A DNA stretch of 5,936 nucleotides, from assembly GCA_028284565.1 (NCBI GenBank), contig JANQRM010000172.1:1-5936 (forward strand), read 5' to 3'. The position numbers were made by a program, and so were the translations under genes. The stretch's first letter is position 1. The number at the start of each line of letters is the position of its first letter. This stretch comes from Anaerolineae bacterium (GTDB lineage: Bacteria > Chloroflexota > Anaerolineae > Aggregatilineales > Phototrophicaceae). Shown here one piece after another: positions 1,189-3,732 of this stretch. The notes beneath the pieces are model-generated. The model was not told the DNA's origin, searched no databases, and saw nothing but the letters and a program-made list of their open reading frames with translations.

Positions 1189-2436
1189 TTAGGGGCAACC
1201 AAGATAGGTATGGAGATCACTGAGGTCTGTACCACTAATCGCCGAGTTCCATGTGAGGATTTCGGCAACACTCCCGTTGAAGTTACTGCCAGAACTATTC
1301 CCGCCACTGTGATACTTCGAACTGCTATTTTGACCCATCACGCCGATTCCACCGCTATGCGCTGTCAATGTGCCTGCATCGTTGTTTGAGCCGATTGAAG
1401 TCCCATCAACATAGAAATAGGTGTTGGGATTATTGAGAACAATGATAGCGTAGTAGGTTGTGTTCGGTTGAATAGCGATGTTGTGGTTCTTAAGACCCCA
1501 ATTGGGACTTAAATTCCAGATACCAAGATACAAATTGCCGCCGTCGATATAGACGTTTATTCCCCGTGTTCCGCCACCTTGCTCATATATCACCTGCTTT
1601 CCACTAGTATCGGCACCTGTGGTGAATTCAACAGCAAAGGTCTTCTGATCATATGAACCTGTATTGATGTTAACATGATTCCCAATATGATAACGTCCAC
1701 TGGTTGAGGTAGCATTGTGATTGTTCCCACTCATATCACTCACTGAGGAACCTGTGAAGTTTTGTAAGCGGAAGACAAAGTTCGATGGCGGAGATGCTGT
1801 CGCACAAACATCAACGGTTGCTGTGGGGGTCGGTGTATTTGTAGGCGTAGGCGTTGGTGTATTCGTTGGACTACCGCCTCCACCTGTTGTAGATGTCGTA
1901 CTACCTGTTGAGCCTGTTGTTACACTGCCTGATGTACTGGTGGTTCCGCCGGATGTTGAGGTTGTCCCGCCGCTAGTAGACGTTGTGCCACCAGAAGTAG
2001 AAGTCGTGCCGCCACTGGTTGAGGTCGTCCCTCCTGATGTACTAGTGGTTCCGCCGGATGTGGAAGTTGTTCCGCCACTAGTAGAGGTTGTTCCACCAGA
2101 TGTGCTGGTTGTGCCACCACTAGTTGAAGTTGTGCCGCCAGAAGTCGAAGTTGTTCCTCCGCTAGTAGAGGTCGTGCCTCCAGAGGTGCTGGTGGTTCCG
2201 CCACTGGTACTTGTCGTGCCACTTGATGTCGATTGGGCGACTTCAAAGCAGGTATCGGTTCCAGTTGCTTCTAAACTACAAACCACATTGGAAAAAACAT
2301 TGCCAATGGAAGGTCCTAAGATTGCTAGCACTACAATCGATGCCACAGAGACCAAGACAAGAATCAAAGCATATTCGACTAAACCTTGTCCGTCTCTTCC
2401 TTTCTTTTGTTTTGGGGTTGATGAAAAAATTGACAT
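1189..2436 (-). CDS. Flp-type pilin fused to a Ser/Thr-Gly repeat stalk and a LamG-like C-terminal domain
   Basis: This 415-residue protein has four parts. Residues 1-65 are a class III (Flp/type IVb) prepilin: a short basic leader, then the cleavage motif G16|QGLVEY with Glu at +5 and Tyr at +6, then a hydrophobic helix (about 19-41). Residues 73-170 are 14 heptads TTSTSGG. Residues 170-209 are a Ser/Gly then Pro/Thr linker. Residues 211-415 resemble a LamG/concanavalin A-like jelly roll, with TFAVEFTTG, NTYFYVDG and a typical ending FNGSVAEILTWNSAISG. Flp pilins are normally 50-80 residues, so this is a large chimera. By family knowledge, the head should be processed by a TadV/FppA-like peptidase and held in the membrane or a Tad pilus, while the LamG tip would bind glycans or matrix outside the cell. 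Cysteines occur as C53/C63 and C211/C414, possible disulfides. The ATG at 2436 has AGGGA 9 nt and AGGG 3 nt upstream. No tad assembly genes are visible nearby. The pilin head is secure; the tip's ligand is unknown. Confidence 0.88.
   Translation of the reverse strand: MSIFSSTPKQKKGRDGQGLVEYALILVLVSVASIVVLAILGPSIGNVFSNVVCSLEATGTDTCFEVAQSTSSGTTSTSGGTTSTSGGTTSTSGGTTSTSGGTTSTSGGTTSTSGGTTSTSGGTTSTSGGTTSTSGGTTSTSGGTTSTSGGTTSTSGGTTSTSGGTTSTSGSVTTGSTGSTTSTTGGGGSPTNTPTPTPTNTPTPTATVDVCATASPPSNFVFRLQNFTGSSVSDMSGNNHNATSTSGRYHIGNHVNINTGSYDQKTFAVEFTTGADTSGKQVIYEQGGGTRGINVYIDGGNLYLGIWNLSPNWGLKNHNIAIQPNTTYYAIIVLNNPNTYFYVDGTSIGSNNDAGTLTAHSGGIGVMGQNSSSKYHSGGNSSGSNFNGSVAEILTWNSAISGTDLSDLHTYLGCP
1928..2218 (-). 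repeat. 14-unit, 21-bp tandem repeat encoding TTSTSGG
   Basis: Thirteen and a final slightly altered copy of a 21-bp unit lie head to tail in the pilin-LamG gene, coding for residues about 73-170. The protein unit is invariant, while the DNA units differ at many third positions. Ser at the fifth heptad position is encoded by AGY in some units (1967-1987, 2072-2092) and by TCN in others (1946-1966, 1988-2008). Units at 1928-1987 and 2033-2092 differ at only 7 of 60 positions, hinting at a larger block duplication of 105 bp. The product is about 70% Ser/Thr with Gly pairs, suiting an extended flexible stalk. Confidence 0.95.
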
Positions 2437-2556: not shown

Positions 2557-3732
2557 CTAGCTTGCAGAGGAAATTGCCTGTTGATAGACCGTTTCAAATT
2601 GTTCAGCAATCTGTTCCCAAGTAAACTTTTCTTGGACTAAATCTTGTCCATTTAGCCCTATATCGTGGAGTTTTGTAGAGGAGCTGAGGAGCGTTTTTAG
2701 GGCTTGTTCAATCGCATCAACCTCTACATCAACGATCAAGCCTGCTTCATACTCTGCTACTTCAGGTAAATTACAACCGGGCGAAATCAACACTGGGATA
2801 CCACTGGCTAGGGCTTCGAGGACTGCCATCGACAATCCTTCTCCAATGGCAGGGAGTGCAAACACATCGGTAACAGCATAGGCTTGTAAGCGTTCATTGC
2901 CTTCTAAATAACCTGTGAGAATAATTCGCTCATCGTGATAGGACTCAAGGGTTGGTTGCATCCCCTCATCGGGACCGACAATTAGCAGGCGTGTATTTGG
3001 CATATCAGCTTTGATGAAGGCTTGTGCCAATAAATCAACTCCTTTGCGCGCCTGTAACCGTCCCATAAACAACACCACTGTTGCATCCCCGATGCCATAT
3101 CGTTGTCGGAATTCGTCAGCATTCGGTAGTCTCTGATAAATCGTTGGATCGATTGCATTAGGGATGATATGGAATTCAGCAGGGATTTTTCGCTTGCCAA
3201 ATTGTGTCCAGAGTGCTTGAGCATCGACAAGTTCCTGATGGGTAAGAGCAATCACATGATCGAAGCGTCTAGCGAGGGCTGGACTGAGCAATGTATCCCA
3301 TGCTTTTTTGAGACGACTTCTACCTGTGCTGTGAATAAGTGTGCCATGTGGCGACAGTATCATTGGGATTTTCATCTGTTGGGCAATTGGTGTCACGACC
3401 AGATTCTCAATCGTGCGGAATTCGTGGCAATGTAAGACATCCACATCGTCTAATATTTGTTGAGCAAGGGCTTGCATCTTGTTGGGGGTAGATAGATTTA
3501 CTTTTCCTCTCAGTTGAGGCGATACATTTGGGCTACGATAGACCTGTATGCCATTGATGATTTCTTCTGCATGGTTAGCATAGCGTGAGGTTTGGTCAAG
3601 TGCGTCGGTAGTGAGGACGGTGATGCGATGTCCCCGTTGATGGAGAACTTGTGTCATCCCTTCGACGGAGCGCACTACGCCCCCAAACGCATAAGCAGGT
3701 GTATAGTAGGGTGTCAGATGAAGAATGTGCAA
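2557..3732 (-). CDS. Family 4 glycosyltransferase (GT-B fold)
   Basis: This is a full-length 391-residue retaining glycosyltransferase of the GT4 type. The N-terminal Rossmann half starts directly with strand one (MHILHLTPYY), has the Gly-rich loop GG at 17-18 with Arg21, and SPHGT at 127-131. The C-terminal nucleotide-sugar half has PNAID (191-195), the phosphate-binding FMGRLQARKG (Arg225, Lys230), IVGPDEG (251-257) and the E-x7-E signature Glu298/Glu306 in GEGLSMAVLE. It would transfer a sugar from an activated donor to a lipid-linked, polysaccharide or protein acceptor in the cytoplasm; donor and acceptor are not predictable. It has no membrane segment. The start is TTG 3732; a TGA lies a few codons upstream in frame, with no ATG between. 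The Shine-Dalgarno site is poor (GAGG is about 20 nt away), suggesting weak initiation. The pilin-LamG gene follows 120 bp downstream on the same strand. Confidence 0.93.
   Translation of the reverse strand: MHILHLTPYYTPAYAFGGVVRSVEGMTQVLHQRGHRITVLTTDALDQTSRYANHAEEIINGIQVYRSPNVSPQLRGKVNLSTPNKMQALAQQILDDVDVLHCHEFRTIENLVVTPIAQQMKIPMILSPHGTLIHSTGRSRLKKAWDTLLSPALARRFDHVIALTHQELVDAQALWTQFGKRKIPAEFHIIPNAIDPTIYQRLPNADEFRQRYGIGDATVVLFMGRLQARKGVDLLAQAFIKADMPNTRLLIVGPDEGMQPTLESYHDERIILTGYLEGNERLQAYAVTDVFALPAIGEGLSMAVLEALASGIPVLISPGCNLPEVAEYEAGLIVDVEVDAIEQALKTLLSSSTKLHDIGLNGQDLVQEKFTWEQIAEQFETVYQQAISSAS

Follow-up and report, generated by a model that had tools for sequence, protein, structure and literature searches.

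Does a Flp-type prepilin head that runs into a long stalk and a LamG domain belong to a pilus, or does it only secrete and anchor an adhesin? The question is raised by a gene on the minus strand of the window, which is the whole 5,936-nucleotide stretch of DNA that was analysed. In the available text of PMC12075869 a Flp is a short protein of 50-80 aa that is helical throughout, a definition that a protein of 415 residues with a LamG tail does not fit.

Head, stalk and tail of the 415-aa protein

The gene is a single open frame that starts with ATG and encodes 415 residues plus a stop. The features of the locus are as follows.

1189..2436, minus strand: whole gene, Flp-headed stalked LamG protein of 415 aa (open frame; ortholog in genome G351)
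2389..2436, minus strand: residues 1-16, basic leader ending in Gly16 (sequence; predicted prepilin peptidase site G16/Q17)
2281..2388, minus strand: residues 17-52, Flp-type helix with Glu5/Tyr6 and GPSIGNVFSN (Flp_Fap E 3.4e-4, below cut-off; tree grouping)
2239..2280, minus strand: residues 53-66, neck with Cys53 and Cys63 (cysteine comparison of heads; putative disulfide)
1879..2238, minus strand: residues 67-186, T/S/G stalk with 13 STSGGTT units at nucleotides 1939-2211 (repeat analysis)
1807..1878, minus strand: residues 187-210, G/T and then TP-rich linker (sequence)
1192..1806, minus strand: residues 211-415, LamG (ConA-like) domain from Cys211 to Cys414 (Laminin_G_3, G351 tail, fold search)
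2557..3732, minus strand: GT4-type glycosyltransferase gene (Pfam), 120 bases upstream of the 415-aa gene and on the same strand

After Gly16 the protein continues with QGLVEYALILVLVSVASIVVLAILGPSIGNVFSNVV, in which Glu is mature position 5. The strongest hydrophobic stretch lies in windows starting at residues 22-24 and is the sole one above the threshold used. Sequence and hydropathy thus give the protein the class III leader (Gly-1, Glu+5) and hydrophobic helix that mark a Flp. A sequence-only reading of this DNA had described a complete Flp prepilin motif with its hydrophobic helix, a stalk and a LamG-like tail in one frame, and all of these were seen. The head profile check that it proposed gave a Pfam Flp_Fap match at residues 20-52 with an E of 3.4e-4, yet the score of 20.8 bits is below the curated cut-off of 32.2. 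Classical Flp pilins (PF04964) have the leader, Glu5/Tyr6 and the hydrophobic helix with GPxIxNxFSN in common with this head, but the 415-aa protein has about 350 extra residues in addition to its low Pfam score. There was no Pfam match to TadE or Tad in the protein at E <= 1. In a 40-column tree its head groups with Flp heads against TadE heads. A TadE or TadG head is therefore ruled out.

Residues 67-186 are almost exclusively T, S and G, and STSGGTT is repeated 13 times, perfectly and in register, over residues 76-166. The seven-residue repeat has no hydrophobic position and is therefore not a coiled-coil heptad, which rules out a coiled-coil stalk. The 78 pairs of units differ at 512 nucleotides and at no amino acid, and serine alternates between TCN and AGY codons. 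The mean pairwise DNA identity of the units is 0.687, against 0.677 +/- 0.009 when the stalk's own codons were shuffled among identical residues; 12.5% of the 1,000 shuffles reached the observed value. Since the identity is at the codon-shuffled level, there is no clear trace of recent unit copying, and this result and the divergence of the units rule out recent tandem duplication. The plain reading is that each unit may be under purifying selection for fold, spacing or a modification site. It is also conceivable that the codons were scrambled by selection to avoid recombination.

The longest exact DNA repeat in this stalk is 17 bases. In the stalks of two relatives, from genomes G351 and G512, it is 29 and 38 bases, values measured without a null. 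Since these exact repeats are longer, the two stalks may grow by slippage. The whole-protein AlphaFold2 model has regular strands in the heptads, with a block pLDDT of about 71-77 over most of residues 81-140. AlphaFold2 falsely builds regular strands for perfect repeats, according to the available text of PMC11795689; therefore, the beta-solenoid model of the stalk is not counted as evidence.

Four further perfect heptad arrays occur in the fetched loci (L005, L010, L022, L027). In three of them (L005, L010, L027) the DNA identity departs from the codon-shuffled null by no more than about one standard deviation, and in the L022 array (GGYTTWS x 11) it is above the null, with z of 4.3 and 5.6 in two runs. 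The heptads of L022 and L027, and also those of L005 and L010, are of the GGYxxWS kind. By eye, the L022 and L027 arrays end subtilase-like proteins.

The proposed LamG-like tail is borne out by Pfam. Laminin_G_3 (PF13385) matches residues 253-404 with an E of 2.8e-7 and 31.2 bits, over the cut-off of 27.6. The AlphaFold2 model of the tail alone is of low confidence (mean pLDDT 47.7). A Foldseek search with that low-confidence model gave 77 matches at E <= 0.001, whose query-based TM-scores are low, at about 0.3-0.47. Among them are pentraxins, LG domains of neurexin, CBM40 modules and receptor-binding domains of lectin-like type. The whole-protein model had no Foldseek match at E <= 0.001; its top rows were neurexin and agrin LG domains at E of 0.0055 and above. 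Neither the protein nor its tail had a credible relative in sequence searches of the PDB.

On the plus strand, at 1721-2458, an open frame of 245 codons lies antisense to the head, the stalk and part of the LamG domain. The repeat explains why its translation is VPP-rich, and the frame has no other support. Scans for promoters and terminators were at chance level, with 12 promoter-like sites against 7.6 +/- 3.1 and 2 terminator-like sites against 3.6.

Stalked, giant and cassette-borne relatives

When the full protein was searched against 151 genomes of the order, 150 matched it somewhere. Among the matches listed almost all were to the head alone, and only G351 matched both head and tail. The ortholog in G351 (L038, 553 aa from its ATG) has a Flp head, a T/S/G stalk, two Ig domains and a LamG domain that scores 30.4 bits with Laminin_G_3. 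It is 45% identical to the 415-aa protein overall and 48% in the tail. A profile of the LamG tail matched one of 154 genomes of the order and, at E <= 1e-5, four of 396 genomes of the class, here the class of an Ardenticatenaceae MAG in the phylum Chloroflexota. The Flp head is present in only one of these four (G351); the other three lack the motif in the first 300 residues. A third stalked form of 463 aa, in G512, has a Flp head, a G/S/T stalk, a cadherin-like domain, a thrombospondin type 3 repeat and malectin.

Protein searches gave one match among 41 candidates with the head region and one among 936 with the tail region. A two-sequence profile gave 14 matches among 7,997 scored candidates, and eight of the 14 were inspected. 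One is a truncated form of the G351 protein (P0003), two have Flp heads (P0001, P0010), one is a flagellar hook-associated-type protein in which the LamG domain sits on a different scaffold (P0004), and four are rich in S, T and G but lack a Flp head. In P0010, a protein of 288 aa with the source name Flp/PilA and a precomputed PF04964 match, the head is followed by a short G/T/S linker and then further sequence. The plasmid collection gave one weak match, to LamG only. The database gene call P0003, compared with L038:808-2469, starts within an Ig domain and lacks the Flp head and stalk. Since this call drops both parts, protein databases can hide such fusions and probably under-count them.

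Of 154 genomes of the order, at least 25 also have a Flp-type head in a frame of 1,021-1,889 codons. At least 24 of these genomes came from the head-profile search, and G056 was added (loci L077, L078, L110-L127, L129, L160-L163). Pfam scans of six of the 25 giants found PA14, InhA-like MAM, reelin-type or Ig-type domains. At three loci that were viewed (L111, L113, L122) the giant gene is flanked by a folD-like and a guanylate-kinase-like gene, both named by eye. The sequence-only reading had called the 415-aa protein giant, a word that suits these relatives of up to 1,884 aa better. Its claim that the architecture is uncommon stands for Flp with LamG (1/154 and 1/396 genomes) but not for long Flp-headed proteins in general. 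Smaller extensions are found in mid-size Flps, in which a short C-terminal addition brings the length to about 140-175 aa (L004, L020, L023, L026, L074, L079, L080, L081, L082). Two of these were scanned, and one has a Big_1 match below its cut-off.

The head tree has 97 rows on its 40 columns, 57 of its 94 inner branches are open, and the bootstrap had not settled. Among the heads of the 25 fetched giants 23 are distinct, and these make up a single group (99/98). With the heads of the 415-aa and G351 proteins added, the set numbers 25 and stands at 98/94, in a tree that the program flags for its few columns. The G512 head falls apart from the other two stalked heads; therefore, one origin of the stalked forms is not supported. 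All three stalked heads have Cys at mature position 37. A Cys within mature positions 36-38 is found in 3/3 stalked, 11/23 giant, 1/40 short, 0/11 mid-size and 0/8 cassette heads. F32 is kept in all giant (23/23) and stalked (3/3) heads. G25-P26 is kept in 23/23 giant heads, and the GP pair is absent from two of the three stalked heads. The Flp_Fap score is under the cut-off in every long Flp-headed protein scanned, including the stalked forms of G351 (17.0 bits) and G512 (29.2 bits), and in many the match is absent at E <= 0.01.

Of the ties between long Flp-headed proteins and the Tad pilus, the firmest is a set of cassettes. A Flp-CBM6 protein of the Ardenticatenaceae MAG was used as query, and 23 of 396 genomes matched it at E <= 1e-15, 11 of them including the head. 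At all 11 loci (L001, L150-L159) the head motif is followed by a shared V/L-APP-x-L sequence, and the Flp-headed gene (486-916 aa) comes directly after a PF13400 (TadG-like) gene on the same strand. A TadE (PF07811) gene precedes the PF13400 gene at 10 of the 11, and L157 is cut by the contig start. Because the 11 loci were selected for their similarity to a single protein of this type, 11/11 is no measure of frequency in the class. The tails carry CBM6/CBM35 in four, GH115_C in three (one with Golvesin_C), F5/8 type C in one and InlB-type repeats without a CBM in three; InlB-type repeats are also present in one of the CBM proteins. Only 3/11 cassette proteins match Flp_Fap at E <= 0.01, and these below the cut-off. 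Their assignment as Flps therefore rests on the motif and, for eight, on the tree; the heads of L150, L158 and L159 were missed by the pattern filter of the tree and were judged by eye. Upstream of the cassette there is a further long TadE-headed protein with a CARDB domain (L001:1063-3171, 702 aa; L153:58-2175, 705 aa).

Pilus subunit or anchored adhesin

The 415-aa protein is probably a modular Tad (type IVc) minor pilin that displays its LamG module on a stalk. The Flp head would be inserted in the membrane and cut by prepilin peptidase after Gly16. The Tad machine would then add the protein to a thin Flp pilus as an infrequent subunit, either within the fibre or at its tip, and the helix of the protein would pack against those of ordinary Flps. 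The neck with its cysteines and the S/T/G stalk would hold the LamG domain away from the fibre. Binding of a ligand by the LamG domain would let the pilus bring the cell to the surface that bears this ligand.

Such a pilin needs a prepilin peptidase, and the check for one was run in relatives. Peptidase_A24 has one match in each of the six genomes searched, the ortholog-bearing G351 among them (G351, G020, G280, G164, G056, G001). T2SSF has two matches 654-725 bases apart on one contig in each of the same six. These profile matches indicate one TadB/TadC-kind machine per genome. In three Chloroflexales genomes only Tad genes for pilus building are described in the available text of PMC7332563, and Flp, Cpa and TadB/TadC clusters are described in Anaerolineae in that of PMC4877987. 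The module order of the G351 ortholog, the Tad-like machine of G351 and the TadE/TadG-like cassettes of relatives all support the pilin reading. It also gains from the G25-P26 and F32 residues kept in heads, which leader cleavage alone seems not to need. The third stalked Flp, which ends in malectin, would fit a pilin as well.

Some observations speak against a pilin. The 415-aa and G351 genes stand alone, with no tad gene adjoining the former (Pfam, window) and none seen at the G351 locus. The stalked heads are not one group, and two of three lack the GP pair. Flp_Fap is below its cut-off in all long Flp-headed proteins scanned. It is worth weighing, as an unlikely but serious alternative, that the prepilin head only secretes and anchors a stand-alone adhesin, which is never polymerised and whose stalk spans the envelope with LamG outward. 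The orphan state of both genes is the reason that this alternative is kept. It would also suit the long low-complexity stalk next to the membrane helix and the 1,000-1,900-codon relatives, whose size is considerable for a fibre and whose neighbours at the three loci viewed are folD-like and guanylate-kinase-like rather than tad genes. However, the helix retains Flp features beyond the leader, and similar long Flp-headed proteins sit in TadE-TadG cassettes at 11/11 loci chosen by likeness to one. The sequence-only reading had offered a decorated minor pilin or an anchored adhesin; both remain, and the gene order of relatives favors the minor pilin.

LamG domains bind many kinds of ligand. In the favoured reading the ligand here is most likely a polysaccharide or glycoprotein. 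It is rather improbable that a modular Tad pilin carries a LamG domain that is no lectin and instead binds protein, calcium or the coat of a neighbouring cell, or serves as a structural cap. Related LamG domains do occur in other scaffolds such as P0004, and no ligand-binding residues were identified in the domain, but recognised carbohydrate-binding modules are found among the other Flp-headed tails.

A misassembly that joined a Flp gene to an unrelated LamG gene can be dismissed as very improbable: repetitive DNA can mislead assemblers and the P0003 gene call starts within an Ig domain, but the DNA of the heptad units is on average only 69% identical, with a longest exact stalk repeat of 17 bases, and the same head-stalk-LamG order lies in one frame in the independent genome G351, so that the junction is no assembly error, the objection that the sequence-only reading had raised against itself.

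The product of the GT4-type gene has general GT4 enzymes as its PDB relatives. No such neighbour was seen, by eye, at the G351 locus. The gene at 2557-3732 might conceivably glycosylate the stalk as an operon partner. Among the 396 genomes of the class, the nearest relatives of the Helicase_C_3 protein encoded nearby are in G020 (58% identity), G280 (57%) and G377 (53%), so that the window most likely comes from the Chloroflexota.

Flp-borne modules and known systems

Serine-rich-repeat adhesins of Gram-positive bacteria have an S/T-rich stalk, a lectin-like domain and a GT4-type glycosyltransferase gene nearby, all of which the locus of the 415-aa protein shares. They differ in secretion route and anchoring, and there is no sign of stalk glycosylation here. 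A Tad-system protein with a pilin-like module and a large adhesion-type domain has the same general plan, but its pilin-like module contains a beta-sheet, and it has a vWA domain and no stalk.

The best reading by analogy is that the 415-aa protein may be the Flp counterpart of streptococcal PilC. PilC of S. sanguinis (PMC9934059, PMC8179133) shares with the G351 protein a pilin head and Ig-like and ConA-like lectin modules, to which the latter adds a stalk. The pilin, Ig and ConA-like plan binds glycans in PilC, as given in the available text of PMC9934059, and this likeness supports a pilin here too. PilC is type IVa, with a crystal structure and glycan binding, whereas the Flp-type protein is known from sequence. 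As described in the available text, PilC also lacks a T/S/G heptad stalk, unlike the 415-aa protein. The adaptable tips of the Tad pilus (KilL/M/N, TadE/F/G; available text of PMC12075869) likewise place variable C-terminal modules on a Tad pilus, but on TadG/KilN-type minor pilins and not on a Flp-type head.

Modular pilins are defined in the available text of PMC8179133 by an N-terminal pilin signal and helix with a C-terminal module that is not pilus-specific, and the 415-aa protein has both, the module being Laminin_G_3. That survey lists more than 1,200 modular pilins with 264 architectures, found via the IPR012902 motif, and PF13385 is among the frequent ones. The word Flp is absent from its main text. 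In the open-licence literature no account of a Flp head joined to a module of this kind was found. The 415-aa protein would therefore add a Flp-headed variant to the modular pilins, and the relatives suggest a wider pattern in Chloroflexota. The sequence-only reading had suggested a family of surface lectins. This held in a wider form, since Flp-type heads recur with LamG, malectin, CBM6/35, F5/8C and PA14/MAM; its part on glycan binding by LamG did not find the same backing.

A broader proposal is put forward tentatively, at somewhat less than even chances. The Flp pilin of Chloroflexota may be an all-purpose carrier that was fused repeatedly, with a low-complexity stalk or linker in between, to exchangeable tips that mostly bind carbohydrates (LamG, malectin, CBM6/35, F5/8C, GH115_C, PA14/MAM). 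This would give Tad pili swappable Flp-borne heads and a TadE-TadG-FlpX tip cassette, and the STSGGTT stalk, as a structured rod or as a glycan ladder, would owe its exact heptad to selection. What keeps the heptads perfect while their codons are scrambled is a question that the stalk raises. From each cassette one can read off a pilin, the TadE and TadG proteins that go with it, and a candidate module for ligand binding.

According to the available text of PMC12075869, the Flp subunits of Tad pili are tiny and plain and the variable parts belong to TadG-like tips; variable domains are assigned to TadG/KilN there and to CpaL in the available text of PMC12607857. If the present reading is true, Flp-type heads with 200-1,800 extra residues would be a second way to functionalise Tad pili. 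Since relatives have long subunits with other tips, thin pili may be a mount for exchangeable adhesive heads. This could explain the choice of surface or partner in a class of largely uncultured bacteria.
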